From: Bacteroidota bacterium
GTDB taxonomy: Bacteria > Bacteroidota > Ignavibacteria > UBA10030 > UBA8401
DNA: 46,065 nt
Assembly (NCBI GenBank): GCA_021796215.1
Contig: JAJYOK010000024.1
Location: 1-46,065 of the forward strand
Direction: 5' to 3'
In this document: positions 12,029 to 43,294 of the stretch, one piece after another
Layout: each line of letters opens with the position of its first letter
Numbering within the stretch: the stretch's first letter is position 1
The notes under the pieces: model-generated
The model's input: only the letters and a program-made list of their open reading frames with translations
Told to the model about the DNA's origin: nothing
Databases searched by the model: none
Position numbers and translations under genes: made by a program

Positions 12029-13288
12029 TCACTTCGGTACAACATCGAAGCGCTCTGTCTTCACCCATGTGCGGCTTTCCTTCGCAATAATATCTGCCCA
12101 TAACGCACGGCCTACAACGTAAATCCACAACTGACAGTACGTGATGTACATGAGAATCATCAGCAGAAAATTCCCCGGCGTATCTTCCCGGTCATACGAG
12201 AGGACGAGAAAAATTTCAAGCAGAAACAATGCAACGGCGAGAATCCACACCGCCGTATACGGACCCGGAAGAAGGATGACAATCACGTTCGTTACGCCCA
12301 AAATGAAAAAAATGTCTGACGCGACAATCGCGACTAAAAAAATGTAGTAGAGTGACAAGAGATAAAAGATTTCGAAACCGAGAAATTTATTTTTGAAGCG
12401 CGGAATCTCCTTCACAAATTTCGAGACGACATAATTATTGCCCCGCACCCATCGTGTGCGCTGGCGAATCCACACTTTCCACGTCTCCGGTTCCTGTTCG
12501 TACGTAACGGCGTACGGAATATACTTTACGCGGAAATTTTCCATGTAAATCCGCACCGTCAACTCGGAATCCTCGGTAATTGCCTCTTCGTCCCACCCCC
12601 CCAATTTTGTCAGAAGGCTGCGCCGGATGACGAAATTCGTTCCCGGAATTGTCGAAACTTTGAACAGCTTCCACCGCCCTGCTTGCAAAATTGATTGGAA
12701 GCTGAGGGTTTCAATATTGATGAAGCGCGTCAGCAAGTTGCGCGCTTTATTCACCGTGCGGAATTTCCCGAGCACCGCGCCTAATTCTGGATGAAGCAAA
12801 AGCTGTGCGACAAGATATTTCAGTGAAGAACGATCCGGCGTGTTGTCGGCATCGTACACGGCAATAATTTCCGACGATGTTTTTCCAACGCCGATATTGA
12901 GCGCGCGCGATTTCCCCTTTCCTCCTTCGCCCGGCGGGATTGTCAGCAGCCGGACATTCGGGTGCTGTTTCGTGTACCGGGAAACAATTTCCGCCGTTGT
13001 ATCTTTCGAGCCGTCATTGATGACGACGATCTCCAATTTTTCTTCCGGATAATCGAGTGCCGTCATCGCTTCAATCGTCCGGCCGATCACCTTTTCTTCA
13101 TTATGCGCCGGAATCAAAAGGGACACGGTAGGCAAATCAAACCGAATGGCATCAACTTGCTTTTGTTCTTTTGCCGATGCTGTGTAATGCGCGTACCCGG
13201 CAATCGTGAGAACAAGCTGGTACGCGATCATGAACCAAATGAGAATAACAGCAATCAGGAAAAAAACCTGAAGAATGAGTTCGAGCAT
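12029..13288 (-). CDS. Membrane family 2 glycosyltransferase (processive, PgaC/NodC-like)
   Basis: Inner-membrane polysaccharide synthase of 419 residues. An N-terminal membrane helix (about residues 5-30) precedes the cytosolic GT-A domain with PTVSLLIPAHNEE, VINDGSKD, DADNTPD (the DxD-type nucleotide-sugar site), the EDSELTVRI base region and QRTRW, the QxxRW signature of processive beta-glycosyltransferases. Four or so C-terminal spans follow. The ATG at 13288 is chosen; the upstream in-frame extension overlaps the preceding gene. It starts 5 bp after that deacetylase/hydrolase gene, pointing to one exopolysaccharide unit. The sugar cannot be read from sequence. Confidence 0.88.
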   Translation of the reverse strand: MLELILQVFFLIAVILIWFMIAYQLVLTIAGYAHYTASAKEQKQVDAIRFDLPTVSLLIPAHNEEKVIGRTIEAMTALDYPEEKLEIVVINDGSKDTTAEIVSRYTKQHPNVRLLTIPPGEGGKGKSRALNIGVGKTSSEIIAVYDADNTPDRSSLKYLVAQLLLHPELGAVLGKFRTVNKARNLLTRFINIETLSFQSILQAGRWKLFKVSTIPGTNFVIRRSLLTKLGGWDEEAITEDSELTVRIYMENFRVKYIPYAVTYEQEPETWKVWIRQRTRWVRGNNYVVSKFVKEIPRFKNKFLGFEIFYLLSLYYIFLVAIVASDIFFILGVTNVIVILLPGPYTAVWILAVALFLLEIFLVLSYDREDTPGNFLLMILMYITYCQLWIYVVGRALWADIIAKESRTWVKTERFDVVPK

Positions 13289-13293
13289 TTCGC

Positions 13294-16200
13294 TTATCCT
13301 AACCTGTTCCGTTTTATTCGAACCAACACATAAAAGAAGACAAGTGCGCCGCCGGCAAAAACTCCGAAGAGCACGATGATGGAACTCGACCACAGGCTCG
13401 TCAAATCAACGCCATACGAAACGCCGCTTTCTGCAACAATCAACGCCTGATGTTCCCCCGGCGGCAAGATAACGCCGTAGCGCCCAAAACCTTTCAACGG
13501 AGTAAAAGCATATTCATTTCCATCAATAAAAACTGCGTACGGAGAACGGTTGAGTGTTACGGCACAACGCGTCGCGCTTTCGTACGTGAACTGCACACTA
13601 CGCTGCGAACTCGATAACTCAAGCAGCCGCCCCGTAATAGAAAGCAGCCGCGCGCCGATGGAATTATCTGTGAAAGGCGCCGATTGATTTTGTTTCACTT
13701 GAATTGTGTGCTCGCCGGCGGGAATGAGAAATTTCCCTCCTCCGGTCGTAAGCACCTCGCTGCTGTCAACAGAAATGCGCTCGATCTTTGAATCAAGATT
13801 CAACGTCGCGCCGTCCGGCGAATTGATTTCCCACCCTCCGGGAATTTGTGTGATATCGGTATGAACCGCAAGCGCGTACGGAAAGAAACGCAAATCCTGC
13901 GGCAATACGCTCGATTCAGAATAGATCGTCACACCCGACGATGCGGCAGCGGCGAAATGTACAATGGTATAACTTTCGATTCCTGTTTGAATGGCCGTCG
14001 GAAATATTGTCAGGCGATTTTCATTACGGAACGAAAGAATATTCAAATCGAGTTTTACCGGCATCGCCGTGCCAAGCAGTTCGTGATACTGTTTGCCAAT
14101 TGCGGTGTATCGCCGCGGAGTTGTTGACCACCGCGATTCCGGGTCTTCAACCTGAAGCGTAAAATTATATTTACTGCGAAGCGCGGCAATGCGCCGGATA
14201 TCAATGCCGTGATATGCGCGCAGCTCCGGCGAGCCGATATTATCCATCGCCGTAACGATAATGGAAAAACCCGGTTTCGTTCTCTGAACATCGGATGCCA
14301 TTCCAAGAAAGACATCGTGCAAATGCGTCACCCAGTCGGTGCGGAAATTTTCAAACTTGTGCAAGGAGGAATCATTCGTTTGCCAGTAGTACTGTGAACC
14401 GGGATGAAAAATTTCGACCGGATCAAATCCATACTTCCGCTGAAATAATGTTCTTGCTGAATGATGGAACGGTGCGAAGAACTGCGGATCCTGCACGCCG
14501 CGTCCCGCTTCAAAATATAATTCTGCGATATTGATTCCATCCCAATCGTCCTGCGTCAGCAGCGAACGATATTGATCGAGAGCTGCTTTTAATGCAACAG
14601 AATCCGTGAGCGCAACGGGATACCGCCACGAAGCACCAACAAGATCGTCTCCCTTGTAATTCTTTTCCCGAAGCTCGGGGTGTTGATCCCAAAACATCTT
14701 GCTGATCTGCGGCGGCTCAATCCACAAATACACAAGAATGCCATTGGCGTGGCACAAGCGAATCAGCTTTGCATAATCGTACGTCCATTTCGGATATTCG
14801 TGCCAGCCTGCTACATCAATCACCCGCACGCCGTGGTCTGCCCACTGCTGAACGAGCGGCTCAATGCTCATCGTGCGGCGGTCGCCCGGCTCAAAATACA
14901 ACTCAAGCGCGTCGCGGCGCACGAGCGGATGCAAGCCGAATATTCTCCGCACATGTTCCAGCAAATACGGAAAACGGCTGTACCCTAAATCGCTGACAGG
15001 ATCGAAACGGGCTCCGAGAAAAATGAATCTTCCTTTTCCGTATTTTCGCGCGAAGGCAACCGGAGCGTCCGTTTTATCGTCGAGACACAGTACTTCATCG
15101 CTCACATCAACATCGAAGCGGAAAATATTCTCCGGACGGTTCCAGCTGATCAATTCCTCCGGATATTCTTTATCGCGGATATGTTCGACTTTCAAAAATG
15201 AATTGGAAAATTTAACGCCAAACTCTGACGCAAGATCATTTTTCCCGTCGGTGATTACCGAACCGCCCTTGCTCATAAAATTCGTGATGGTTTGAAAATC
15301 GGAATCTCTGAGAAAATCTACCGCAGCGTACGGAACGATCAAAAGATTGTACGGCGAAAGATCAAGCGCGTTTCCCGCAGTTAATGTGTCAAGCTGAATA
15401 TGAATCACGCCAAATGCATTGAGAAAGCTTGCCTGATCGTTCTTGACGCCGCCTGTCGCTTTCGGTGTGAGCAGCAGCAATCCGTGCGCCGCCTCGGATT
15501 TTTCCTGCGGAAGAAAAATCTTTTCACTCAGTTTTTGAGCGCTGAATTTCACATTTTGCCAGAATGTGAGTTCCTGTTCTTTGTATTCTGTCGGCTCAGC
15601 GACATAGATCCAGCCGGGGTCAAGCGTTGGTGTTCGCTCAATTTTTCCCCTCATGCGCTGCGGAGAAATATCACTGCGCTCTACTTTCCCTTCAGGGTCA
15701 ACATACATTTCTTTCAAGAATTGATCTTCAAGCGAAACGCTGTATACTCCTTCGCCGGAAGCAATGACTTGATCCTTCAAGTGAACTTCGTTGTTCTGAT
15801 TCTTCAAATCAATGAACGTATACCCTTCCGCTTTGATGCCTTCGACCAGCCTCTGCAAAAGATCAATCGGCAGGAACGGATGAAAAAATGCCGCTGCAAA
15901 GCCGTCGCGCACCGCAAGATTCGCCTTTGCAAATGCGATGAGCTGATCAACAGATGCTTCCATTTTTGTTTCGCTGCTGTCGAGCGGAACATATCCTAAA
16001 TTTTCAGGATAGATTTTTTGCCCGTAAAGATCTTTGTTGATGATATACGGGAAGTACTGGGAATAATCCAGATCGTCAATTGCGAGGCGCTGTTCCATCG
16101 CTGAAGAAAAAATTCCCGCGATGGCAGAATAATCAATTTGTGATGCGCCGTAATGCGGCGTTTCCCAAATCAGAGGGAAAATATTATTCTTCAGACATTC

Positions 16201-17235
16201 CTCGATGCCGGTCCGGATTTTTTTCTCGACAAACTGTTTTGAATCATTCTTGATCGGCTTGTTCAGATTTTCGTCCCAAAACTCATAATCAGTTGTCGAA
16301 ACACCGTGGTACTGATGCGTTACACCGTGCATCACAATTGTTCCGCCGTGCTCGACCATGTAATGAATGGCGTCTACAAAATCCGGCTTCTCCGACATGC
16401 TGACGCGAATGCCAGCGCCGGGATCAACATAGAACGGAACAAGAGAAACCAAAAACGGAACATCTTCGGAAGAAAGCAGATCGGCGATATCGCGCAGCTG
16501 CGACGGATCAGAGAACGGATTGACGTCTTCAATACGAATGAGCGCGGAATGGCTTTCAGGATGATCTTCCCCCAAAATATCGTGCAGCATATCGGCAAAC
16601 AAAAGGTAGCGGTCGTTTTCCGTTGCAGAGGCAAACGGCGAATCGCCGAAGTAGTAGAAATTTCCGCTCCGCACGGCGTACGGCGATTGTTTCGTACCGT
16701 GTGCCGCCGTTGCAATCGCCAGCACCGAACACCGGCTTGCATCGGTCACTTTTATGATATTGAGATTCGGTTCCGTTTTTGTAAAGCTGTAACCGTTAGC
16801 GCGCACGTTGTCAAAATCCGAGACCGTATCGAATGATACAAAACGGAATCCGTACCGCTTTGGCAAATCATACGAGCGGGCGTAGGCATCAAGACCGGTA
16901 TTTAACCAAATGACCGTGTGCTTCGTTTTGAAAATATCGGCGAGAAGAGATTGAGGAACGGCAGGCGTTTTAGTGAAGCCGATATAAAACGTGAAATCAA
17001 AATTTTCAAGCTGAGAAGATTTGTACTCCGCTGATGCCTGAATTGTGACGTCGGTATTAAAATGTCCGAGAAGTTCGCCTAACTGACGGGCATCGCCGCG
17101 TCCATAGTTTGTCGGGACATTGCTTCCTTCGTAGATCACAAGAATTTTCTTCAACGGATAACTACTTTGGGATTGCTGTCCGAACAGATGTTGAACACTG
17201 CAAAAGACAAAAAAGAGAAAGATGAGGCGTTTCAT
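13294..17235 (-). CDS. Large secreted DUF2334 deacetylase-like / glycoside-hydrolase-like envelope protein
   Basis: The 1313-residue protein has a signal peptide (1-20). A Rossmann-like amidotransferase-fold domain (about 27-225) comes next, then a DUF2334 polysaccharide-deacetylase-like domain (about 230-480) with RIEDV (E236, D237), MHGVTHQYH (H303, H307), WETPHYG and FFHPFLP. A second amidotransferase-like region (about 585-765) is followed by a TIM-barrel glycoside-hydrolase-like region (about 775-1090) with VYLWIEPP and WDGINIAELYFE (E905). A beta-rich tail and one membrane helix (about 1285-1305) before RIKRNR end the protein. The active domains should face the periplasm. Directly coupled to a processive GT2, it plausibly deacetylates and trims the nascent polymer, by analogy with PgaB or PelA. 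Domain boundaries are approximate and the function is inferred. Confidence 0.75.
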   Translation of the reverse strand: MKRLIFLFFVFCSVQHLFGQQSQSSYPLKKILVIYEGSNVPTNYGRGDARQLGELLGHFNTDVTIQASAEYKSSQLENFDFTFYIGFTKTPAVPQSLLADIFKTKHTVIWLNTGLDAYARSYDLPKRYGFRFVSFDTVSDFDNVRANGYSFTKTEPNLNIIKVTDASRCSVLAIATAAHGTKQSPYAVRSGNFYYFGDSPFASATENDRYLLFADMLHDILGEDHPESHSALIRIEDVNPFSDPSQLRDIADLLSSEDVPFLVSLVPFYVDPGAGIRVSMSEKPDFVDAIHYMVEHGGTIVMHGVTHQYHGVSTTDYEFWDENLNKPIKNDSKQFVEKKIRTGIEECLKNNIFPLIWETPHYGASQIDYSAIAGIFSSAMEQRLAIDDLDYSQYFPYIINKDLYGQKIYPENLGYVPLDSSETKMEASVDQLIAFAKANLAVRDGFAAAFFHPFLPIDLLQRLVEGIKAEGYTFIDLKNQNNEVHLKDQVIASGEGVYSVSLEDQFLKEMYVDPEGKVERSDISPQRMRGKIERTPTLDPGWIYVAEPTEYKEQELTFWQNVKFSAQKLSEKIFLPQEKSEAAHGLLLLTPKATGGVKNDQASFLNAFGVIHIQLDTLTAGNALDLSPYNLLIVPYAAVDFLRDSDFQTITNFMSKGGSVITDGKNDLASEFGVKFSNSFLKVEHIRDKEYPEELISWNRPENIFRFDVDVSDEVLCLDDKTDAPVAFARKYGKGRFIFLGARFDPVSDLGYSRFPYLLEHVRRIFGLHPLVRRDALELYFEPGDRRTMSIEPLVQQWADHGVRVIDVAGWHEYPKWTYDYAKLIRLCHANGILVYLWIEPPQISKMFWDQHPELREKNYKGDDLVGASWRYPVALTDSVALKAALDQYRSLLTQDDWDGINIAELYFEAGRGVQDPQFFAPFHHSARTLFQRKYGFDPVEIFHPGSQYYWQTNDSSLHKFENFRTDWVTHLHDVFLGMASDVQRTKPGFSIIVTAMDNIGSPELRAYHGIDIRRIAALRSKYNFTLQVEDPESRWSTTPRRYTAIGKQYHELLGTAMPVKLDLNILSFRNENRLTIFPTAIQTGIESYTIVHFAAAASSGVTIYSESSVLPQDLRFFPYALAVHTDITQIPGGWEINSPDGATLNLDSKIERISVDSSEVLTTGGGKFLIPAGEHTIQVKQNQSAPFTDNSIGARLLSITGRLLELSSSQRSVQFTYESATRCAVTLNRSPYAVFIDGNEYAFTPLKGFGRYGVILPPGEHQALIVAESGVSYGVDLTSLWSSSIIVLFGVFAGGALVFFYVLVRIKRNRLG

Positions 17236-20494: not shown

Positions 20495-21571
20495 CTACGA
20501 TAGATATTTATCAGGATTAATAGAAAAATCTTCAAATGATTCTTCTCGATAATCAATTGGAATCCCAAAAAATCGTCGGAACCGATTTTGCTCATCTTTT
20601 TTAACAACGGATTCTTTGCCTGTATGATTGTTAAAAACAGTTATTTTAATATTTCTCGGATGATGAGTCTGAATCCGCTTTAATAGATACTTCAAGTGAA
20701 TATCCGCGTCAGGGAAAGAATAACCACAAAAAATAAGATGATTCACATCGCGAAGTTCCTGTTCTATCAAATGCCATACGGTAGAAAGAAAAATGTTCGA
20801 CATGTCTTTGAAATAGGTTGGCGGTACGATTATCGGCAATGAAAATGAATCGCAGTGTTTACATTTTGATTGTTCAGGATCTGTAATAATTCGTATTACT
20901 CCTTTTTCATATGGAGTAAGAGTCAAGGTATTGCATGATGGACAGAATAACCAATTAAGTGAGCCATGCGGCTTGAATAACTTCACTGATCTATTTGTCG
21001 GTCTGTGCCAATTTCCAGGAATATCGAAATTTGTAAATTCGAGACCATAATCAAGAGAAATCTCTTTTTGAATCAATGAACCAAGCGCATTGTCGATTAA
21101 AATATCATAATTAGTACTGACAAATATTGTTTTTGTGATTTTCCCATGTGAATATAAGTTATCAACTAATCTTTGGTGATATCCGGGTGGATTGGAAAGC
21201 GTTTCCGATAAAACTTGAGCAAGGACAAAAATAAGCCATTGACGAACATATCGGATACGAGGAGTATTAACAAGAGCAGTTTCAGAAGTAAATTCGCTAA
21301 GGGCTTCTCCTCGTTTTTCAGCCAAATCTAGTATTCCTAACGCTTCTTCAAAAGTTGGGAACAAAGTCGAATCCAAATCAGCAATTTCGGGGATTATGGA
21401 AAAGATTAAACCAAAGAACCTTGCCACATCGAGTTGTGCAGCATTACCAATCTTTCCTGATCTTATTAATCGAAAGTATTCTCTGAAAACCTCGTTCTGT
21501 AGAGGTGCTCCTTCTGAATGCGATGCACCTGCTCCTAAAAATATTACGTTATTCATGTTTCGACTTTTCAT
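20495..21571 (-). CDS. Stand-alone SIR2-domain protein, candidate anti-phage NADase
   Basis: The 358-residue protein has a SIR2-like NAD-binding core: IFLGAGASHSEGAP at the N-terminus, STNYDILIDNAL, KPHGSLNWL and CGYSFPDADIHLKYLL. A zinc-ribbon pair CPSCN/CKHCD interrupts the core at about residues 212-245. Such SIR2 proteins occur in phage-defence systems as NAD+-depleting effectors and as single-gene defences; others are deacetylases. The gene is visibly AT-richer than its neighbours. A GTTAGGC core 7 nt before the start and GCCTAAC 7 nt after the stop give it cassette-like edges. No second defence gene is adjacent. Confidence 0.8.
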   Translation of the reverse strand: MKSRNMNNVIFLGAGASHSEGAPLQNEVFREYFRLIRSGKIGNAAQLDVARFFGLIFSIIPEIADLDSTLFPTFEEALGILDLAEKRGEALSEFTSETALVNTPRIRYVRQWLIFVLAQVLSETLSNPPGYHQRLVDNLYSHGKITKTIFVSTNYDILIDNALGSLIQKEISLDYGLEFTNFDIPGNWHRPTNRSVKLFKPHGSLNWLFCPSCNTLTLTPYEKGVIRIITDPEQSKCKHCDSFSLPIIVPPTYFKDMSNIFLSTVWHLIEQELRDVNHLIFCGYSFPDADIHLKYLLKRIQTHHPRNIKITVFNNHTGKESVVKKDEQNRFRRFFGIPIDYREESFEDFSINPDKYLS

Positions 21572-25260: not shown

Positions 25261-25312
25261 GTAACGCCGAGTTTTTACTCGGCGCCATACACCGCTCAGA
25301 TCCCGGCGTTAC
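25261..25312. repeat. REP-like palindromic unit, copy B
   Basis: Begins GTAACGCCGAGTTTTTACTC and ends CCCGGCGTTAC, with an internal CGCCGAG/CTCGGCG hairpin. The transposase stop codon (25309-25311) lies inside its right arm. Confidence 0.75.
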
Positions 25313-25938
25313 AAATAATCCTTGTTTAAATATGTCCATCTCCAATTTTCCCAACACTGGCAAAGTCTAGCCTTAACAGGGTTGTTTAAAATATATTTTA
25401 TAATCCTGTTTAACTCTTCCGCGTCCCGCACTATGTGATCATAATTTTCCCTGTGCCAAAAGCTCCCATTTCTCTTAAGAATAGGATTTGCTTTAACCGC
25501 ACTGTACGATTTTACACGCTGCAAGATGCTATGCAATGGGATATTTTTTCTCCGCATGTCTGCCAGAAGATGAACATGATTCGGCATAAGGCAGAAAGCT
25601 ACCACATCATACTCTTTTTGATCATAAAATAGTATTGCATCATAAACAATCTTTGCAACGCTCGGAATTGTAAGCCAAGAAACATTGTCCTTTGCTTGAT
25701 CCAAATAAGAATCGAAATGCCCGAAGTACCGTTTAGACTCATCATAAATCAGAATACTACGTTTTTTATCGTCATGTTCATGTAAAATAGGTTTACGATT
25801 TATTTCCCGCTCTTGCATTAACGCGGCTATCTCTTCTTTCGGAATTGTATTTACAAGGCGAAATGTAACAAATAATATTGCGCCTAAAGGCTGATAATGA
25901 GGCAATCGTCTTTTGTAAAAAGGCTTCAAGGTTTTCAT
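25309..25938 (-). mobile_element. REP-associated tyrosine transposase (RAYT, Y1/HUH family)
   Basis: Single-stranded-DNA transposase of the IS200/IS605-related Y1 class, about 209 residues. The start MKTLKPFYKRRLPHYQPLG and LFVTFRL are typical of RAYTs. The HUH metal motif is in FCLMPNHVHLL, and a candidate catalytic Tyr is in LQRVKSYSAVK. The C-terminal NDPxxA-like stretch reads ILNNPVKARLC. ATG 25938 is preferred; an in-frame extension to 26061 would cross REP copy C and the neighbouring small gene. It is bounded by REP-like palindromes on both sides, the normal arrangement for a domesticated or mobile RAYT. It interrupts the symporter neighbourhood. Confidence 0.88.
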
Positions 25939-25952
25939 GGTGCCGTTCATTT

Positions 25953-26006
25953 GTAACGCCGAGTTTTTACCCGGTGCATGATACGCCGAGCAAAGCTCTG
26001 CGTTAC
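25953..26006. repeat. REP-like palindromic unit, copy C
   Basis: Begins with the same 17 bases as copy B (GTAACGCCGAGTTTTTAC) and ends CTCTGCGTTAC. Internal complementary segments are CGCCGAG/CTC and GTAACGC/GCGTTAC. It overlaps the stop codon of the 44-residue peptide gene (26003-26005). Confidence 0.75.
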
Positions 26007-26137
26007 ATTTTGTTTTGCTGATGCAGCAAGTCCCGCAAATCCTTAAAACCGACAACCGCAATTACTGCGGCAACTCCGAAAAACAAAAAAGTGGAAATTC
26101 CAAAAAGAACGATCCAGACAAGCGCCGCTGAATTCAT
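26003..26137 (-). CDS. 44-residue symporter small accessory membrane peptide
   Basis: The ORF begins MNSAALVWIVLFGISTFLFF, continues with a hydrophobic stretch to about residue 29 and ends with the polar tail GFKDLRDLLHQQNKM. Its ATG overlaps the stop of the symporter gene (ATGA), and a GGAGG lies seven bases upstream, so it is almost certainly co-translated with the transporter. Small single-span peptides encoded next to SSS/NSS symporters are known as accessory subunits; assignment to that group is by position and size. The stop lies inside a REP unit, so the tail may have been altered by that insertion. Confidence 0.7.
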   Translation of the reverse strand: MNSAALVWIVLFGISTFLFFGVAAVIAVVGFKDLRDLLHQQNKM

Positions 26138-27797: not shown

Positions 27798-29018
27798 TTA
27801 CCGATAAAGGAAATATTTTTCTCTCAGTCTTCCGAATTCCTGCAGCTGCATTTTCCATTGAGAAAAGATTTCTTCGGGATGGATTCCCGCTTCTAATTTT
27901 TTTCTGACGCTCGATGAGCCGGTGAGAATGTCAAAGCGGCGATGGCGAAGCTCCGTCTGCTGCGGATATGCGCGCTTGAAAGCCGCCAGAATTGCAACAC
28001 CTAAACGAACCGCGCGGATTGCATTCCGATCTGTAACTTCAATTTTGATTCCGCGGCACCGCTCTCCTCCGTATTTCGGTGCGCTCGCAACGCCCGGAAT
28101 TTCCTTCGGAATAAATTCACTTGGTGAAAAAACAACTCCGCCAATGGGATTTTCAACCGGCGTTTCGAATGTAGTCAACTCTTTCAGAATTTTCTCCGGG
28201 TCAGCCCACGGCGCGCCGATCAATTCAAACGGCGATGCCGTTCCTCTTCCTTCTGAAATCGAAGTGCCTTCGACAAAACACAAACCGGGGTACACAATCG
28301 CAGTGGACAACCGCTGCATGTTCGGAGACGGTGCGATCCACGGAATGCCCGTATCATCGTACCACATATCCCGGCGCCAGCCTTCCATCGGCACAACCGA
28401 AAGATTCGCTTTTACACCGCCCGCAAGCCAGCCTTCCTCGTTCCACAATTGCGCAAGTTCTCCGATCGTGAGTCCATGTGTAACAGGAATCGGCATCCAG
28501 GCAACAAATGATTTCAGCGGCTGCTCGCGAACAGGCCCATCGTAACAAAGCCCGCGAATCGGATTCGGCCTGTCAAGAATGATGAACGGAACGCGAAATT
28601 CTGCCGCTGCTTCAAGCGCAAGTGCGACGGTCGAGATGAATGTGTAAAACCGCGCTCCGACATCCTGAATATCGCAGACAAGCACATCAATGCGTTCCAG
28701 CATTTCTTTCGTCGGCTTGTGCGTTTTTCCGTAGAGAGAATAGATCGGAACGTGATACTGAGGGTGCGCGGCGTGGTCAACAACAGTTCCGTCCGGCGTG
28801 TCGCCGAAAATTCCGTGTTCTGGCCCATAGAGTGCGGCAAGCGTTGCAATTCCCGATTCGGCAATCGCATTGGCGATGTGTGTGCCGTCGGTTAAGCATC
28901 CGGTATGATTTGTCAAAATACCGACGCGCTTATTTTTGATGAGATCAGAAAAATCACTCAGCAATCGATCGGCGCCGGTTTTAACAATTGAAGTTTTTGG
29001 AGAAAGAATTGTCTGCAT
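27798..29018 (-). CDS. namZ: Exo-beta-N-acetylmuramidase NamZ (DUF1343, GH171)
   Basis: Predicted exo-lytic enzyme that releases MurNAc from the non-reducing end of peptidoglycan fragments, as established for the DUF1343/GH171 family. The 406 residues contain the family blocks KRVGILTNHTGCLTDG, LYGPEHGIFGD, VCDIQDVGARFYTFISTVALALEAA, ILDRPNPIRG, WIAPSPNMQ and CFVEGTSISEGRGTASPFE. There is no obvious signal peptide from the chosen ATG (MQTILSP), and the in-frame extension to 29051 adds none, so localisation is unclear. It lies upstream of an SSS symporter and downstream of a HGSNAT-like acetyltransferase, consistent with cell-wall sugar recovery. Confidence 0.93.
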   Translation of the reverse strand: MQTILSPKTSIVKTGADRLLSDFSDLIKNKRVGILTNHTGCLTDGTHIANAIAESGIATLAALYGPEHGIFGDTPDGTVVDHAAHPQYHVPIYSLYGKTHKPTKEMLERIDVLVCDIQDVGARFYTFISTVALALEAAAEFRVPFIILDRPNPIRGLCYDGPVREQPLKSFVAWMPIPVTHGLTIGELAQLWNEEGWLAGGVKANLSVVPMEGWRRDMWYDDTGIPWIAPSPNMQRLSTAIVYPGLCFVEGTSISEGRGTASPFELIGAPWADPEKILKELTTFETPVENPIGGVVFSPSEFIPKEIPGVASAPKYGGERCRGIKIEVTDRNAIRAVRLGVAILAAFKRAYPQQTELRHRRFDILTGSSSVRKKLEAGIHPEEIFSQWKMQLQEFGRLREKYFLYR

Positions 29019-29054
29019 GAAATCTTGTTTATCCGTGGTGCAAAAATTCATTTG

Positions 29055-29132
29055 TCATGCTGAGCGCAGCGAAGCATCCATTCTTTATAATACCAAGTAG
29101 ATTCTTCGGTCGCTTCGCTCCCTCAGAATGAC
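29055..29132. repeat. Dispersed palindromic intergenic repeat
   Basis: TCATGCTGAGCGCAGCGAAGC faces GATTCTTCGG...CCTCAGAATGAC across about 30 bp; same family as 23255-23327 and 27731-27782. Confidence 0.6.
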
Positions 29133-29164
29133 TATTCTTTAACTTCATATACAATTTCAAGAAG

Positions 29165-30265
29165 TTACACTTTCAGAAAAAGATGACGGCGGTACATCCA
29201 ATAACAGAGAAGCCAGCCGAGTCCGACGATGAATGTAGAATACAGAAGCGAGCCGGCAACAGGACCGGCAAATTCAGAAAATGTTTTATAGAAAAATCCG
29301 ATCGGCGACGTCGGCAAGCCGTGCCATTCAACTTTCCATTGCAGCATAACCCACCGGACAAATAACCCGGTCGCTACATACAGCGTGATGGCATTCATGC
29401 CGAAAACAACAAACGGAAATGCCCACGCGGTTTTCTTTTTCACTTCGATGAGCCAGTAGAAAACCGCAAGCACTAAACATGACCACCCTGCGGTGTATAC
29501 TGCAAATGACGAAGACCAGAGAATTTTACAGAGCGGTACGATCTCGTTCCACACAAGTCCGATCGTTACTCCTGCCGCGCCGAACGCGAGCAATGTTCTT
29601 ACAACCGACATATCGTCTTTGCGCTTCAGAATATACTTTCCTGCAATCACACCGAATAACACGGTGGAAATTCCGGGAATCATGCTGATGATTGTTTCTT
29701 TGTCATTGGGCGAGAGAATAAAACTGTCAAGATATTGCGCCGAATTGACATCGCGCAAAAACGAACCCGGAATAACGCCGGGACCTTTGACAAACGCGAG
29801 AATCGCCCACCAAACGAAAAGCATTGCAACGGAAATCACCCACTGCCACTTCACTTTTAGCCGAAGCAAAAGGAAAACAATGAAGTACAAAACGCCGATG
29901 CGCTGAAGAATCCCGAAATGCAGCACCGGCATATTCAGTAATGCCGATTTGAGGAACGCGCCGAAGAAATACAACAACAGCGCTCTTCGCGCCGCGACGA
30001 GAATTTCTTTCCAGTATGGAACAGCGGCTTCACGTTTCTTCGCATCGCTGAATGGCATTGCCACACCGACGATGAATAAGAAGAATGGGAAAATCAAATC
30101 GGCAAAGGTGCAGCCGAACCATTCAGAGTGGAGCAACTGATGCGGAACAATTGTCTCGTCCCATGTGCCGGGATTGTTGACGAATAACATTCCCGCAATC
30201 GCAAATCCGCGAAACGCATCGAGTGATGTCAGGCGTTTCGTAAGAAATGAATTTGATTCAGACAT
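29165..30265 (-). CDS. HGSNAT-like membrane acetyltransferase (DUF5009 / COG4299)
   Basis: Polytopic inner-membrane protein of 366 residues with about ten spans, related to heparan-alpha-glucosaminide N-acetyltransferase. The N-terminal TKRLTSLDAFRGFAIAGMLFVNNPG, the FADLIFPFFLFIVGVAMPFS stretch and the ILQRIGVLYF segment are characteristic. The family moves an acetyl group across the membrane onto the amino group of a glucosamine, which fits this amino-sugar locus. The ATG at 30265 is preceded by GAGG; the upstream extension lacks family sequence. The bacterial substrate is not established. Confidence 0.88.
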   Translation of the reverse strand: MSESNSFLTKRLTSLDAFRGFAIAGMLFVNNPGTWDETIVPHQLLHSEWFGCTFADLIFPFFLFIVGVAMPFSDAKKREAAVPYWKEILVAARRALLLYFFGAFLKSALLNMPVLHFGILQRIGVLYFIVFLLLRLKVKWQWVISVAMLFVWWAILAFVKGPGVIPGSFLRDVNSAQYLDSFILSPNDKETIISMIPGISTVLFGVIAGKYILKRKDDMSVVRTLLAFGAAGVTIGLVWNEIVPLCKILWSSSFAVYTAGWSCLVLAVFYWLIEVKKKTAWAFPFVVFGMNAITLYVATGLFVRWVMLQWKVEWHGLPTSPIGFFYKTFSEFAGPVAGSLLYSTFIVGLGWLLCYWMYRRHLFLKV

Positions 30266-30456
30266 ATTTTCCTCATTTATTGCTGAAGACACACAAACAA
30301 AAAGAACATCATTTCCGAATGCTTTTATCGGGAATCTGATTACCGGAATCTGATTAAAATAATGGATTCCCGTCTTCCTGCCTACCGCAGGCAGACGCGC
30401 GAATGACAATCCTCTGGTTTGATTCTCTAAAAGTCATTTGGCGTAACTTCAGTTTA

Positions 30457-32304
30457 TTATTTGAATAAAGCATCATAGACTTCAATTTCCCGAATCGCGT
30501 ACGACGAACCTTTCTTGTCACCACTTAAACCTTCCACGCGCAGGTAACGAGCGTTCGTTACGTTTTGAAATTCAAACAATTCCACGCCGCCGTTTCCATT
30601 CGAAACAGTGTGAACCACTTTCCACTTTTTACCATCAGTTGAAACTTCAATGCGATAATTACTCGCATAATTTTCTCCCCAGTAAATTTTCACCGAGGCA
30701 ATGCGCTGAAGTTGTTTCCATGTTAATTGCAGCCACTCATTATGTGTCTCCTTCAGCGCCATTTTCAATTTCTCATCGGGCGTCACACGAATTCCGGATC
30801 GCCAGCGGGTATCCATATTTCCATCAATCGCTTGTGAAGGTTGAAAATTTCCGGGACCCCAAAGCGCATTCTCCGGCGAGTATGACGACGCACTCGCCGA
30901 TGCGATCAAAGCAATATTCCGGAGAGGCAAAACAGAATCACGGGAAATGATGTTTATCATCATAAACGAGTACGGCGGCGCATCAATGGCCAAGTATCCG
31001 GACGTAAGAGAAATATCAGGAAGCCTTTCGTTCTTTCGCTTCTTGTCGAGAATCCAGACGTTCGCTTTTTCTGAAGGAGTAAAATTGCTAAACGCGATTT
31101 GTACTCGATGCGGTTTGCGTTCGTCTTTGTTGATAAGCGCAATCGAAATCCGTTTGCCATCTTTCGCGGCATATGCAGAAACATCCGCAGTACTTGAAAC
31201 AGCAGAGACAACTTCGTTGCCGAAATGCTCCGCGAACATCGGAAAAACATAGTAGGCATATCGGCGTGTATTCCTGCCGTCGGAAGAAAGATAGCCGAAG
31301 TCGCCGCCGCGGGGAGGATACTCATTATGAAGCGCCCAAAAACAAGAAACGTCGGTTTTCACTTCCGCCATCGTTCCAAGCATGTCGGCTGACCAGAGTG
31401 CATTCGCCAGCGAAATCGTCTGCGGTCCCGGCGAATGGTTCACGGAATTATATCCAACGTTGATGAACAGCAGCTTGTCCGATTTTTCTTTCCCGAGCGT
31501 GTGTTCAACTGTTTCTTTGAGATCGAGGAAAAGCTTTCGGTACCAGCCAACGCTTGCAAACAACGTGTCGTCGTTTTCCTTTCCCCACGAAAGAGGAAAA
31601 TAGGTGAACGTCAGCAAATCGTAGTAACCATCAGCGGCGCGCAGAACGCGCGGCGTCCATCCTTCTGATTGTGAACCGAGCGACGGCGAATTTGTCCCAA
31701 GAACTTTTCGACCGGTGAGGGCGACATTGATCGCGACTTTAATCGTTGAATCAACATCTTTCATCGCTTTGACAAATGAAACAAATTTTTCCGCATATTC
31801 TTCCGGTGTCGAATGCCCTTTTGCCCACGTTCCCCATTGTTCGTCGCCGACTTCCCACAGTTTCACATGATAGCCGCGCTCTTTGTTGCAGTAACGCACC
31901 CATTCTGCGGCAAGCGAGGGCGGCTCGTTGAAATTAATTGTGATGAACGGCTCGGCGCCGACTTCGCGGCAAAGCGCAATGTATTCATCCGTGTTCATAT
32001 CGCCGTCATTACTGGAAGACGAATTCCAGATATAATGGTCGGCATCGTTGCCGCCCGGATATTTCAGCAGCGTTACGCCCGACGCTTTGATTTTCTGAAT
32101 TGCATCACGGCCGCACGTGAGAAGCATTTCATTCGCCGGACCGGGAAACAGCGATTCGTCCCACCGTGCCGTGTTGATGCCGTAGAGCCACGGATTCACG
32201 GTGTGAATTACTTTCGCCGCATCAACTGTCACTCTGACATCTTGTGCGAGACTGATCGTATGAAAGCCCAAAAGAATAAGAACGATCGTTAAATATTTTT
32301 TCAT
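30457..32304 (-). CDS. Secreted GH51-like arabinofuranosidase homologue with discoidin (F5/8 type C) domain, nucleophile replaced
   Basis: A 615-residue exported protein with signal peptide 1-20. Residues about 25-430 follow the GH51 alpha-L-arabinofuranosidase plan: YGINTARWDES, LLKYPGGNDADHYIW, KLWEVGDEQWG with the acid/base Glu155, and ALWSADMLGTMAEV. Where GH51 enzymes have the nucleophile as T-E-Y-N-S, this reads V-G-Y-N-S: codon 284 is GGA (Gly). The expected Glu-Glu spacing (about 120-130 residues) is otherwise kept. A C-terminal discoidin/CBM32-like domain (about 475-612) should bind sugars. The start has CGGAG six bases upstream, within the end of the upstream GNAT gene. Probably a binding protein or altered enzyme. 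Confidence 0.8.
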   Translation of the reverse strand: MKKYLTIVLILLGFHTISLAQDVRVTVDAAKVIHTVNPWLYGINTARWDESLFPGPANEMLLTCGRDAIQKIKASGVTLLKYPGGNDADHYIWNSSSSNDGDMNTDEYIALCREVGAEPFITINFNEPPSLAAEWVRYCNKERGYHVKLWEVGDEQWGTWAKGHSTPEEYAEKFVSFVKAMKDVDSTIKVAINVALTGRKVLGTNSPSLGSQSEGWTPRVLRAADGYYDLLTFTYFPLSWGKENDDTLFASVGWYRKLFLDLKETVEHTLGKEKSDKLLFINVGYNSVNHSPGPQTISLANALWSADMLGTMAEVKTDVSCFWALHNEYPPRGGDFGYLSSDGRNTRRYAYYVFPMFAEHFGNEVVSAVSSTADVSAYAAKDGKRISIALINKDERKPHRVQIAFSNFTPSEKANVWILDKKRKNERLPDISLTSGYLAIDAPPYSFMMINIISRDSVLPLRNIALIASASASSYSPENALWGPGNFQPSQAIDGNMDTRWRSGIRVTPDEKLKMALKETHNEWLQLTWKQLQRIASVKIYWGENYASNYRIEVSTDGKKWKVVHTVSNGNGGVELFEFQNVTNARYLRVEGLSGDKKGSSYAIREIEVYDALFK

Positions 32305-32305
32305 C

Positions 32306-33259
32306 TCATTCTCCGATATCTTTCTTCATAATCATGTGGCGGCGAATGACTTTTAGTCCGACTTTATGATAGAAATCTTTTGCGCGCCCGGTTGTCCATG
32401 CAAGCCAGAGATTGTGTTTTCCTTTTTTTCGCATCTGTTGAACTGTACTGTAATAAAGCAATGGGCCCAAACCGCGGCCGATGTATTCTTTGTGAATACC
32501 GAAGGGACCATAGCGTTCATCGAGAAAATGACTGAAGCCGACAACTTCATCACCTTTAAGCGCAACGAGAATTTCGTCGCATTCAGGATTTTCGGTAATG
32601 CGTTCAAGCGCAACGCGAAACAGATCGCCGGGATAATTCTCGCGGAGAAACTCCAGCACTTTCAGCGTATAGCCCGGCTTAAAGACGCTGACGGTAAAAC
32701 CAGATTCGTTCAATTTTTTGAGGACGCCGTTCACTTCTTCCGGGACGTGCACATCAATTAACGAACGTCCCATGCCATACACGCTTTCCACTTTTTTGTA
32801 GCCGCTCTCTTTGAGAAAAAGAAAACTTTCCGCGTACGCATCGAGATCAACACCGGGAATAAAATAATTCGGCGTGTAATCGGAAACGAAAATTTCTTCG
32901 ACACCTTCCTGTTTAAGAAAGCGCTCCGCTTCAATGAGAAGCTTTGCTGCAATCTGCTGCCGGCGCCATTGCGGATGAACAAAAAACGCCGTTACCCAGC
33001 CTTTGCCCGGCTCCAGTCCTAAATCGTAATACGGATAGCGGCGGCGTATGCTCAACAGAAATCCGACGATCTCTTTTTGTAAACCTCGTTGGGACTTCAC
33101 CGTTGCAACGAAACAGCCGCGCGCGTCAAAATTCGGATCGAGAATAATTTTCCGGCGGAATGTGTTGAGTGAAATCTCATCACGCGGCAGACACTGGTTC
33201 CATAACGCGATGACCCCCTGCTCGTCTTCTGCTTCATAATGGCGGATGGAGTATGTCAT
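32306..33259 (-). CDS. Double-GNAT-domain acetyltransferase, paralogue 1
   Basis: A 317-residue cytoplasmic protein built of two GNAT folds. The N-terminal domain (1-150) carries VTAFFVHPQWRRQQIAAKLL, whose RRQQIA occupies the acetyl-CoA loop. The C-terminal domain (about 165-315) carries GIHKEYIGRGLGPLLYYSTVQQM, in which GRGLG is the better conserved CoA-binding turn. The overall plan, including the SDYTPNYFIPGVDLDAY insert, is shared with the paralogue at 34178-35140. The substrate is unknown; amino sugars are plausible because a PIG-L deacetylase gene lies between the two copies. The stop is one base before the GH51-like start. Confidence 0.82.
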   Translation of the reverse strand: MTYSIRHYEAEDEQGVIALWNQCLPRDEISLNTFRRKIILDPNFDARGCFVATVKSQRGLQKEIVGFLLSIRRRYPYYDLGLEPGKGWVTAFFVHPQWRRQQIAAKLLIEAERFLKQEGVEEIFVSDYTPNYFIPGVDLDAYAESFLFLKESGYKKVESVYGMGRSLIDVHVPEEVNGVLKKLNESGFTVSVFKPGYTLKVLEFLRENYPGDLFRVALERITENPECDEILVALKGDEVVGFSHFLDERYGPFGIHKEYIGRGLGPLLYYSTVQQMRKKGKHNLWLAWTTGRAKDFYHKVGLKVIRRHMIMKKDIGE

Positions 33260-33376
33260 GAAATGGTTCGAGGTTTGAGGTTCGTGATTAGTGATTCAAG
33301 GTTAAAGATTCAAGAAGAATATTTTTCTTTGAAAGTTATTTTTTCGTGTATTTTGTGTGCTTCGCGGGCTAAGTTG

Positions 33377-34084
33377 TTACGGGAGCAAATCCACGACGCG
33401 TTTTTTTTCGAACGGATCAACATCGAATGCTTCGGCGTATTTCGTTCCGGCTTCTGCGCCCCGAACACGGGCAAGCGCTTCGTAATACTCCAGATACGGA
33501 AAGGCTGAAATTCCACCCTTGATGAACTGATACTGCGTAACGCATTCTTTCCACAATTCTAATTCTTCAGAAACATCAACATAAAGATACGGCTTGAAGC
33601 CTTCAGGGTCTTCCCAATTTTCGGTGAAATAAATCGCCTTGATTCCCCGGTGACGCGGATGTTTGGTTACAACCCCTTCCAACGACGCAAGAAGAATGGC
33701 ATCCATCACAATCGAATACGTGTTCGCGTGATCTTTGTGAATGCTGTTTTTCCAATGCGTGATGACGTGCGTCGGCTTCACCTGACGAATTATATCGGCG
33801 ACATAACGGCGCGCTGCTTCATCGTTCGGAAGCTCGCCATCTTTGTACGGTGCGAAAAGAGCTTCTGCGCCGATCACTTTCGCTGCAGCAAGAGCTTCTC
33901 GATGTTTTAGTTTGCCGTACTCTTTCGGCGACATCGCCGGATTTCCGCCTTCACCTAACGTAAGATGAAGAAAGACAATTTGTGCGCCATGTTTTTTATG
34001 TTTCGCAAGCGCTGCCGCACAGGTTACTTCCATGTCGCCGCAATGTGCGCCGATGGCAAGAAAGGTTTGGGAAGAAGTGTTCAT
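33377..34084 (-). CDS. PIG-L (LmbE-like) family deacetylase with altered AHPDD motif
   Basis: Predicted zinc-dependent N-deacetylase of 235 residues, a family that acts on GlcNAc-type substrates (GlcNAc-PI, mycothiol precursor, BshB). The hallmark AHPDDxE appears as AHCGDME: the metal-binding His14 and Asp17 and Glu19 are kept, but the Asp that serves as general base in MshB is Gly16. The distal HKDH (H116, H119) metal motif is present. This may mark a distinct subfamily or a loss of activity. It is flanked on both sides by double-GNAT genes, suggesting a deacetylation/acetylation pair. There is no clear ribosome binding site. Confidence 0.82.
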   Translation of the reverse strand: MNTSSQTFLAIGAHCGDMEVTCAAALAKHKKHGAQIVFLHLTLGEGGNPAMSPKEYGKLKHREALAAAKVIGAEALFAPYKDGELPNDEAARRYVADIIRQVKPTHVITHWKNSIHKDHANTYSIVMDAILLASLEGVVTKHPRHRGIKAIYFTENWEDPEGFKPYLYVDVSEELELWKECVTQYQFIKGGISAFPYLEYYEALARVRGAEAGTKYAEAFDVDPFEKKRVVDLLP

Positions 34085-34177
34085 TTGATTTTTGTAAGTA
34101 GTCGTCCTAGTCAGCCACAGAGTTCACCGAGAATTTTTCAAAAACTCTGTGTCTTCCGCAGCTTTGTAGCTGAAACA

Positions 34178-35140
34178 TCACAATTCTTTTTTCAGCAGTG
34201 TAAACCGCCGCGTTTCTTTGAAGCCGAACTTTCCATACACTTTCGCCGCGCGGTCATCGGTCCACATCACCCATGCATTATGATATCCTTGCTGTTTCAT
34301 CCGCTCAATTGTCCGCGCAAGCAGCACGGTGCCGATACCTTTCCCTTGAAACGCATCGCTCACGCCGAACGGACCGAAATGCGAACCTTCAAACTGGCAG
34401 TAGCCAATAATGTCGTTGCCTGTCGCCTTCTGCGCCATCTTTGATTTTGCAACAACTGTAATTTGATCGGTACGAAAAGTTCCTTCTTCAATTTTCCGGA
34501 GATTACGCCGCTCAACGCGCACCCAATCCGAGGGCATTGTCCGTTCCAGAAAATCAAGAAAGCGAAGAAGATCGCTCCGCTGATACTGACGAATCACGAT
34601 ACCGTTTTCATTCAGCGTTCGCTCAAGCTTTTTCACGTCTTCCGACACTTCAAACAAAACAATTGGCGCATCCATGCTAAGCGCTTCGTGATACGGAGCG
34701 TAGCCGTGCGACTGGAACAACGCGAGCAGCGGCGTGTATGCTTTCTGATCAATCCCCGGCGCAAAATATCCGGGCGGATAACCGGAGACGAAGCATTCTT
34801 TCTTGCCGAGTTTTTTAAATCGCTGTTCCAATTCGGAAAGCAACTTGCCGCCAACTTCTTCCATATTTGATTTTGGATGAACAGCGAGAATTGTAATCCA
34901 GCACCGGCCGCCGTTCGGATCGGCGTCGCCTAAAGGCATTCGCCGTGCATACGCGCCGATGATGAATCCGACAAGATTGTTATTGTCACGGGCAAGGAGA
35001 AAAGCTTCAGCGTCAAAATTTTCATCGAGAAGAACCCGCGTTTCAAAAATCTCTTCCGTTACGGCATCAAGCGGAAGCGCTTCTGCCCAAAGAGAAAGAA
35101 CTTCTTTGCGATCGAAATCGGTAAATGGTGCGATGTTCAA
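34178..35140 (-). CDS. Double-GNAT-domain acetyltransferase, paralogue 2
   Basis: The 320-residue paralogue of the protein at 32306-33259, with the same two-domain plan. The first domain has ITILAVHPKSNMEEVGGKLL and the shared SGYPPGYFAPGIDQKAY insert. The second has GVSDAFQGKGIGTVLLARTIERM, with a canonical Q/R-x-x-G-x-G turn, and ends RAAKVYGKFGFKETRR. In the first domain the CoA loop is degenerate (SNMEEV), so catalysis probably rests on the second. The start is TTG at 35140 with GGAG seven bases upstream, overlapping the PorV-like stop (TTGA). Confidence 0.82.
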   Translation of the reverse strand: MNIAPFTDFDRKEVLSLWAEALPLDAVTEEIFETRVLLDENFDAEAFLLARDNNNLVGFIIGAYARRMPLGDADPNGGRCWITILAVHPKSNMEEVGGKLLSELEQRFKKLGKKECFVSGYPPGYFAPGIDQKAYTPLLALFQSHGYAPYHEALSMDAPIVLFEVSEDVKKLERTLNENGIVIRQYQRSDLLRFLDFLERTMPSDWVRVERRNLRKIEEGTFRTDQITVVAKSKMAQKATGNDIIGYCQFEGSHFGPFGVSDAFQGKGIGTVLLARTIERMKQQGYHNAWVMWTDDRAAKVYGKFGFKETRRFTLLKKEL

Positions 35141-36162
35141 TATGAGACTCCGAGTGAAATAAAATGTACTGCGCTGAAAATTCCAAACGGCTCATACGCA
35201 TAATCGAGATGCAACGTATAGCCGGAAAAATTCTGTGACACTCCAAAACCAGCCGTGAATCCCCGCTCATCCAGTCCGGTCATATATCCGGTACGCAGGG
35301 TAAACATTTTTGCAAAATTATATTCGCCGCCGAAGCGCAGACTTTCACTGAAATCCCTCGGATGCGTTGACTGCACACTGAGAACAAATGAATGTTGTGA
35401 CGATGCATAGTCTGTCAGCAAAAATGAAAGCGGGTCAACAGTCAAACCGAAATTGACAGAGAACGGCAGAAAAAATGCCTGCTGAACGTACGTAATTTGC
35501 CGGGAAACATTTTGAAGAGCCGCGGCAAAGCGAATGCCATGAGACAGAAAATCGTACATCGCACCGACATCGAACGCCGGTTCTCCGTGCACATATTTAA
35601 TTGTTGATAATTGGCCCGGGTCGGAAATATCTGCGCCTGACGGGGCAACCCACGCGCCGCCTAAATTCTGATACGCATACTTGATATGAACGCCGTAAGA
35701 AAATCTGTCGCTCACCTTCTGAGAAAATCCGACTCCCACGGCAAACGCCTGCGGACTAAAAGTCCCTGTCTCGACATAGCCGTCGGAATTGTTGGCGTAT
35801 CGCGTTCCGTAGAAATTGCCGTAGTCCATAGCCACGCCGTCAAAAGCGAGCACGCCAAAGTCCCATAATTGAAAGGCGACCGAGGGAGCAAAATAATTAA
35901 TGTTTGCAATTCCTTGTGTGTAGCTGACATTGAAATCAATTTTCTGTTCAATCCAACCAAGCCCCGCCGGATTCCAAAAAACTGCATCTGAATTCGTCAT
36001 TGTTGCAACACCGCTGCCGGCTTTCCCCATCGCTTCTGCAGAAACGGGGTTTTCAAGAAACCGGAAACCAGCTTGGGCTTCCTCTGTTTGCGCTCGTACG
36101 TTGCTGCTCAAAAAAACAATTGTCAGCACGACAGCAATTAAATAAGAAACGGATTTATTCAT
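35137..36162 (-). CDS. PorV/PorQ-family outer-membrane beta-barrel protein (UPF0164)
   Basis: A 341-residue exported protein, signal peptide about 1-25 (MNKSVSYLIAVVLTIVFLSSNVRAQ). The mature start GFRFLENPVSAEAMGKAGSGVATMTNSDAVFWNPAGLG is the hallmark of the PorV/UPF0164 family. It is followed by alternating strands ending in an aromatic C-terminus (HFISLGVSY). PorV-type barrels act in T9SS as shuttles or surface anchors for cargo. A gene for a T9SS-tailed protein is immediately upstream, which supports such a role. The ATG at 36162 has GGAG eight bases upstream. Confidence 0.85.
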   Translation of the reverse strand: MNKSVSYLIAVVLTIVFLSSNVRAQTEEAQAGFRFLENPVSAEAMGKAGSGVATMTNSDAVFWNPAGLGWIEQKIDFNVSYTQGIANINYFAPSVAFQLWDFGVLAFDGVAMDYGNFYGTRYANNSDGYVETGTFSPQAFAVGVGFSQKVSDRFSYGVHIKYAYQNLGGAWVAPSGADISDPGQLSTIKYVHGEPAFDVGAMYDFLSHGIRFAAALQNVSRQITYVQQAFFLPFSVNFGLTVDPLSFLLTDYASSQHSFVLSVQSTHPRDFSESLRFGGEYNFAKMFTLRTGYMTGLDERGFTAGFGVSQNFSGYTLHLDYAYEPFGIFSAVHFISLGVSY

Positions 36163-36199
36163 CTCACTATCTCCAATTGTATTGCCATTTAAAATTGCA

Positions 36200-38329: not shown

Positions 38330-38370
38330 CTTCTTGCTCCTCTTCCCGATTTTATAATTCGAGAATGACA

Positions 38371-43010: not shown

Positions 43011-43134
43011 AGCACATCCTATTAAAAATGGTGAAGTTGAAAACCGCACCTCAATGTGTGCGACATGGTGCAGCTTATTTCAAACTGTGATGGGAGGGTG
43101 AAATAGTGAGTAGTTCAGTACGGGCAGAAATTAA

Positions 43135-43160
43135 AAAGGCATGATACTAATATCATGCCG
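43135..43160 (-). terminator. Rho-independent terminator of the btuB-like gene
   Basis: On the minus strand GGCATGATA and TATCATGCC form a 9-bp stem around a 4-nt loop, followed by TTTTTAATTT. It lies about 135 bp downstream of the btuB-like stop and separates that unit from the SusC-like receptor. The stem is almost a perfect palindrome, so an operator is an alternative. Confidence 0.75.
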
Positions 43161-43294
43161 TGAGAAGGTTCAATTTTTGTCTGCCTTCGACTCACGAGAT
43201 ATGGAGTACCCATCACTCGATACGTCTGTTTTTCTGTTGCAAGTATAGAAAATATTTACCCGTTTGTCAAGTACTTTTTTTGAAAAATCGGTTC

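Follow-up and report, generated by a model that had tools for sequence, protein, structure and literature searches.

Background

In the Pel system, the GT4-type glycosyltransferase PelF is accompanied by PelD, PelE, and PelG. In PelA and PelADA, a CE4-like deacetylase and then a beta domain come after an alpha/beta domain, which is ThuA/PhzE-like in the former and of alpha/beta/alpha type in the latter (PMC12022489, PMC13254593); for PelADA, docking on PelG has been proposed (PMC13254593). PgaB of E. coli and Bordetella is a periplasmic partner of a GT2 synthase and combines a CE4-type deacetylase with a GH153 barrel at its C-terminus (PMC5933820). The pssABCDE operon of Listeria is responsible for a beta-1,4-ManNAc-based polymer and encodes the putative deacetylase PssB (PMC5422440, PMC6307706). 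Here, we describe a pair of genes from a Bacteroidota bacterium, which was detected in a stretch of 46,065 nucleotides, in the following called the window. The pair encodes a large protein, named the giant below, and a GT2 synthase; very likely, it makes and then chemically trims a secreted amino-sugar polymer.

The gene pair and its surroundings

An earlier interpretation of this DNA, the sequence-only reading, had placed a 1313-residue protein 5 bp upstream of a QxxRW synthase. This arrangement was confirmed: both ORFs are located on the minus strand (Table 1), and the GT2 gene lies 3' of the giant gene, 5 bp after its stop codon. The giant is predicted to be exported. The mechanically determined GT2 ORF comprises positions 12029-13393; the start conserved among the homologues is the ATG at 13288 (MLELILQ), which is preceded by AGGATAAG. 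The genes on the 5' side of the giant, one of them TolB-propeller-like, are unrelated to the pair; on the 3' side, the pair is followed by a convergent GNAT acetyltransferase gene and then by the ruvA/ruvC/yebC/recJ region. Scans with consensus promoters and terminators gave about twice the number of hits obtained for shuffled DNA, and a convincing operon promoter was not found.

Table 1. Features of the gene pair and further features of the window
Feature	Positions	Strand	Evidence or content
Giant, 1313 aa	13294..17235	-	ORF, Pfam, 60-homologue alignment, models; order: signal peptide, amidotransferase-like, DUF2334/CE4-like, beta domain, amidotransferase-like 2, GH153/GH42-like barrel, beta-rich, TM
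Class I amidotransferase/ThuA/GH42-domain-B-like alpha/beta domain, residues ~28-224	16564..17154	-	VIA Z 14.9 Gan42B domain, 13.9 anthranilate synthase subunit, 13.6 ThuA-like protein
DUF2334, CE4-like deacetylase fold, residues 225-478	15802..16563	-	Pfam 168 bits; VIA Z 17.5 to polysaccharide deacetylase (rmsd 2.8, 222 residues); invariant E236, D237, H303, H307, H452
Second amidotransferase-like domain (GH42 trimerisation-domain-like), residues ~584-760	14956..15486	-	PF08532; PDB profile matches to GH42
(beta/alpha)8 barrel, PgaB GH153- and GH42-like, residues ~770-1120	13876..14928	-	VIA Z; conservation; invariant E905 ending strand 4
Beta-rich region, residues ~1121-1270	13426..13875	-	DSSP on model
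Conserved juxtamembrane segment and TM helix, residues ~1271-1303	13327..13425	-	Hydropathy; conservation
GT2 processive synthase (predicted), 419 aa	12029..13288	-	Pfam GT2 families; motifs in 22 homologues; hydrophobic stretches at both ends
Lone SIR2_2-domain protein	20495..21571
IS200-like Y1 transposase	25309..26061	-
Gene group	27798..45256	-	NamZ exo-N-acetylmuramidase, HGSNAT-like acetyltransferase, PIG-L deacetylase, GNATs, secreted GH18 with type IX sorting tail, TonB receptor

Judged by its sequence, the GT2 protein can be assigned to the processive synthases, as it contains the D, DxD, TED, and QxxRW motifs and flanking hydropathy peaks. The segments DGS, DADNTP, TEDSE, and QxxRW (QRTRW here) are invariant in 22 GT2 homologues. 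PDB profile matches were obtained with chondroitin and cellulose synthases; the best NCBIfam match is PgaC/IcaA with 174 bits, well under the cut-off of 422.

Elsewhere in the window, the gene group listed last in Table 1 looks like a cell-wall/amino-sugar scavenging region. SIR2_2 domains, one of which occurs here in a lone protein, are found in anti-phage defence proteins.

Domains and predicted structures of the giant

The giant was modelled with AlphaFold2 as two halves, each based on 60 homologues, giving a pLDDT of 89.8 and a pTM of 0.85 for the N half and values of 89.7 and 0.88 for the C half. A search of PDB sequences with the whole protein or with the N half gave no significant match, and the C half matched only GH42, weakly. 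DUF2334 (PF10096) was assigned to residues 231-466 with 168.4 bits, compared to a Pfam gathering cut-off of 26, and was matched in all 27 of the giant homologues inspected with Pfam. Within this domain, E236, D237, H303, H307, H361, and H452 are invariant among 60 non-redundant homologues, and R383 is present in 59 of them. The order E236-D237, H303-x3-H307, H452 is that of the CE4 motifs, with a glutamate rather than an aspartate as the putative base. Given both the modelled fold and this motif order, the domain is a predicted CE4-type deacetylase.

The top solved matches of the barrel are C-terminal domains of PgaB (Z 25.8, rmsd 4.0, 318 residues; VIA), which are tied with GH42 enzymes (Z 25.2, rmsd 3.2, 309 residues; VIA). 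At the sequence level, neither a GH family above the Pfam cut-off nor a Pfam match to PgaB's barrel family was found for the barrel. The GH42 trimerisation domain PF08532 is sub-threshold at residues 600-662 (19.3 versus 25.8 bits), so that, by the Pfam cut-offs for the catalytic and the trimerisation domain, the giant falls outside GH42; PF08532 was matched in 26 of 27 homologues with a best E-value of 4.6e-8. The sequence-only reading had stated that the domains differ from those of Pga systems. This holds at the sequence level and is less true at the level of folds, since the best match of the barrel is the PgaB hydrolase domain. Agd3 (CE18) and the PelA/PelADA structures were absent among the fold matches listed, which has no bearing either way.

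In the barrel, E792, D899, E905, D998, E1087, E1107, and D1114 are invariant in the 60 homologues; E1030, D1031, D1063, and N1065 occur in 58 to 59 of them. The acid/base of GH42 enzymes is located at the end of strand 4, and, according to the DSSP strands of the model, E905 terminates strand 4 of the giant's barrel. Judged from the model, E905 may correspond to D474 of PgaB (PMC5933820). At the C-terminus, residues 1271-1303 show a mean conservation of 2.79 bits per column, compared to 2.82 for the barrel and 2.19 for the preceding beta-rich region.

With the metal-site motifs of DUF2334, the hydrolase-like barrel, two amidotransferase-fold regions, both seen in the predicted structures, and a C-terminal anchor recognised as a TM helix by hydropathy, the architecture proposed from sequence alone was recovered. 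A class I amidotransferase activity of the giant was set aside, because the alignment contains no invariant cysteine in those domains; C717 is present in 47 of 60 homologues.

Linkage and co-inheritance

The linkage survey was based on 80 GTDB loci identified with the giant profile. These are the best 80 of 350 relatives, and the survey thus samples the closer ones. Six loci stop at a contig edge; in all 74 readable loci, the GT2 gene follows the giant in the same orientation, no more than 1 kb downstream and nearly always adjacent. These loci span Ignavibacteria, Bacteroidales, Acidobacteria, a spirochaete, and others. A script flagged the two genes as adjacent in 69 of the 74 cases. Of the five inspected manually, L067 and L068 are ORF-start artefacts, and L131 and L137 carry split giants followed by GT2. 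At L087, the GT2 gene lies 0.9 kb 3' of the giant on the same strand. The conserved linkage with GT2 genes in other genomes, whose absence would have counted against the sequence-only reading, was borne out.

Among 60 genomes ranging from the window's genus up to its order, 31 contain the giant and 29 contain the GT2 at E ≤ 1e-80. All of the 29 belong to the 31; the remaining two (G027 and G058) have truncated or fragmented giants. This nested distribution argues against a chance pairing. The pairwise distances among giants are correlated with those among the GT2 proteins (r = 0.946 over 54 loci; permutation maximum 0.378), a value to which shared species history contributes. In the tree, the copies of Bacteroidales and the spirochaete fall inside Ignavibacterial groups, which suggests that the two genes move together. 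Phylum-wide, the pair was found in 15 of 395 sampled genomes, all of which belong to the window's class. Four deep-branching giants (L140, L142, L143, L144) have about 1650 residues, including some 350-400 additional N-terminal ones; at these loci, giant and GT2 are followed by a protein of about 280 residues belonging to a family distinct from the outer-membrane-barrel family that is usual there.

Recurrent neighbours and stand-alone modules

A gene for UDP-GlcNAc 2-epimerase is located directly 5' of the pair (position -1) in 26 of the 72 loci with readable upstream DNA. Such loci occur in both Ignavibacteria and Bacteroidales, although most of the Ignavibacterial ones lack the gene. The genome of the window carries an epimerase on another contig, which is 61% identical to the operon-linked type; close relatives of it were found in 27 of 31 pair-bearing and in 15 of 29 pair-free genomes. 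This distribution is suggestive and falls short of proof. On the 3' side, an outer-membrane-barrel-like family occurs within three genes of the pair in 19 of 63 loci, and 2 of 16 members are similar to SlipAM. This family is absent from the window's genus, and at the window locus there is no recognisable outer-membrane exporter. The "minimal two-gene" system of the sequence-only reading is therefore only partly upheld: in many relatives, epimerase and/or outer-membrane barrel adjoin the pair, which then belongs to a larger cluster, so that it is not strictly a two-gene system.

Stand-alone DUF2334 proteins of Streptomyces and of Comamonadaceae plasmids align to residues 30-476 of the giant with 30-34% identity, and their genes are adjoined by wecB and a glycosyltransferase gene. 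The occurrence of DUF2334 beside a glycosyltransferase and an epimerase in other phyla indicates that the pairing is broader than the fused giant. The plasmid search for DUF2334 relatives returned no Firmicutes. The C half also exists alone, in proteins of about 730 residues and about 30% identity. Modules corresponding to both halves thus occur apart, and the giant has the appearance of their fusion. C-half homologues without DUF2334 (aligned to residues ~586-1266, ~30% identity) are encoded at L061:2209-4395 and at L060, L062, and L063; the L061 copy is not located near a GT2. A Comamonadaceae plasmid (L151:6134-15080) carries wecB, a glycosyltransferase, a small protein, DUF2334, a TPR protein, and a DUF4434 protein, and looks like a fuller Gram-negative version.

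Proposed function and alternative explanations

We consider it probable that the pair constitutes a compact exopolysaccharide system of the synthase-dependent type, with the giant removing N-acetyl groups from the chain as it emerges and hydrolysing it. The GT2 synthase would polymerise an N-acetylhexosamine from a UDP-sugar and thread the chain across the inner membrane. The exported giant would be held by its conserved C-terminal helix, probably at the exit of the synthase. There, the DUF2334 domain may strip some of the N-acetyl groups in a metal-dependent CE4-type reaction with E236 as base, D237, H303, and H307 as metal ligands, and H452 as acid, and the GH153/GH42-like barrel may cut the partly deacetylated chain with E905 as acid. 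Cutting could control chain length or clear stalled polymer, as in PgaB and PelA. By analogy to PelADA, the TM region of the giant may dock on the synthase, since residues 1271-1303 are conserved beyond the needs of a plain anchor. Two observations weigh against the scheme: the genome of the window contains neither the outer-membrane-barrel family nor PgaA_barrel nor BcsB, and the epimerase, missing at most Ignavibacterial loci and encoded elsewhere in this genome, also occurs in pair-free genomes.

Parts of this scheme can be read differently. The barrel might be non-catalytic and bind the polymer or guide its export, leaving the giant a deacetylase alone. The lack of a GH family assignment would fit such a role, as would the fact that the catalytic residues are deduced from the strands of the model; nevertheless, we regard it as unlikely, given that ten acidic or amide residues are kept in 58-60 of the 60 homologues and E905 in every one. 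More improbable still, in our view, is a GT2 that makes a glycan or glycolipid of the cell envelope instead of a polymer for secretion, with the giant modifying the envelope glycan. Many loci, including that of the window, are without an outer-membrane exporter, and GT2 families span broad functions; against this stand the processive QxxRW motif of the GT2 and its matches to polymer synthases, and next to the pair no lipid-carrier genes recur.

A serious rival concerns the sugar. We hold it to be quite possible, if short of probable, that the polymer is a PNAG-like poly-GlcNAc and contains no ManNAc; the system would then be a diverged counterpart of Pga with equivalent function. The GT2 has its best NCBIfam match in PgaC/IcaA, the barrel has its best fold match in PgaB, and most Ignavibacterial loci lack an adjacent epimerase. 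However, the GT2 score is far under the value required for PgaC, and the epimerase is a repeated neighbour of the pair in two lineages and of stand-alone DUF2334 genes in two further phyla. Moreover, PssC of Listeria is about 30% identical to IcaA, and its polymer is still ManNAc-based (PMC4125290, PMC5422440). From the recurrent epimerase and the precedent of poly-beta-1,4-ManNAc in Listeria, ManNAc appears somewhat more likely than GlcNAc, which is a tentative assignment.

The most specific version of our proposal is an undescribed class of machine in Ignavibacteria, Bacteroidales, Acidobacteria, and others, which produces partly deacetylated poly-ManNAc from two dedicated genes, a synthase and an anchored protein that combines a PelA-type deacetylase with a PgaB-type hydrolase and docks via its TM helix; taken as a whole, it is possible but doubtful. 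If the proposed function is correct, the pair offers a genetic handle on matrix polymers in Ignavibacteria and some Acidobacteria. Deacetylation and cutting would be physically coupled to the synthase in one protein, so that it would become testable what the hydrolase contributes to polymer export, a matter of debate. In addition, the pair hints at what DUF2334 does, a domain that in the literature searched is mentioned in a metagenome survey only.

Comparison with described systems

B. subtilis has a DUF2334 match, and YdaL of this species is a DUF2334 protein. Like the pair, the operons pssABCDE of Listeria and ydaJKLMN of B. subtilis combine a GT2 (PssC, YdaM) with a putative deacetylase. 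They differ in that they carry a BcsB-like protein (PssD, YdaN) and a degenerate GGDEF c-di-GMP receptor. No BcsB match was found in the genome of the window (the E. coli and B. subtilis controls were positive), and none of the window ORFs scanned contains GGDEF; one GGDEF gene is located on another contig of the genome. We know of no fused hydrolase in Pss/Yda systems. The clusters with stand-alone DUF2334 proteins are similar to the pair in their wecB and glycosyltransferase neighbours and in the alignment to the N-terminal part of the giant. In contrast, their hydrolase-like proteins (GH16, DUF4434) each have a gene of their own, the Comamonadaceae clusters include a TPR protein as well, and the glycosyltransferase sequences are distant from or unrelated to the GT2. 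The EPS clusters of Actinoplanes and Rubrivivax were considered as counterparts and set aside as other systems. For Ignavibacteria and some Acidobacteria, the literature searches turned up no description of a comparable system; as far as we found, the pair is an undescribed, widely conserved variant of synthase-dependent polymer machinery.

The closest similarities are to Pel and Pga. The N half of the giant has the domain order of PelA/PelADA, and PelA likewise joins a deacetylase to a hydrolase; PelADA is anchored by a single membrane pass, and the giant has a C-terminal TM anchor. However, the hydrolase of PelA is an N-terminal GH166 domain, whereas the barrel of the giant is located in the C half, and PelD, PelE, PelF, and PelG were neither found near the pair in the window nor recurrent in its relatives. 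As in Pga, a predicted deacetylase is joined to a barrel beside a GT2; in its fold, the barrel is best matched by that of PgaB, in a tie with GH42, and at the sequence level it has no Pfam match to the PgaB family. In contrast to PgaB, the giant possesses two additional amidotransferase-like domains and the TM anchor; the GT2 falls short of the PgaC/IcaA cut-off, and a profile search for PgaA_barrel gave no match in the genome of the window (E. coli control positive). In its proposed working, the pair thus resembles PgaB/PgaC and PelA, and it belongs to neither.
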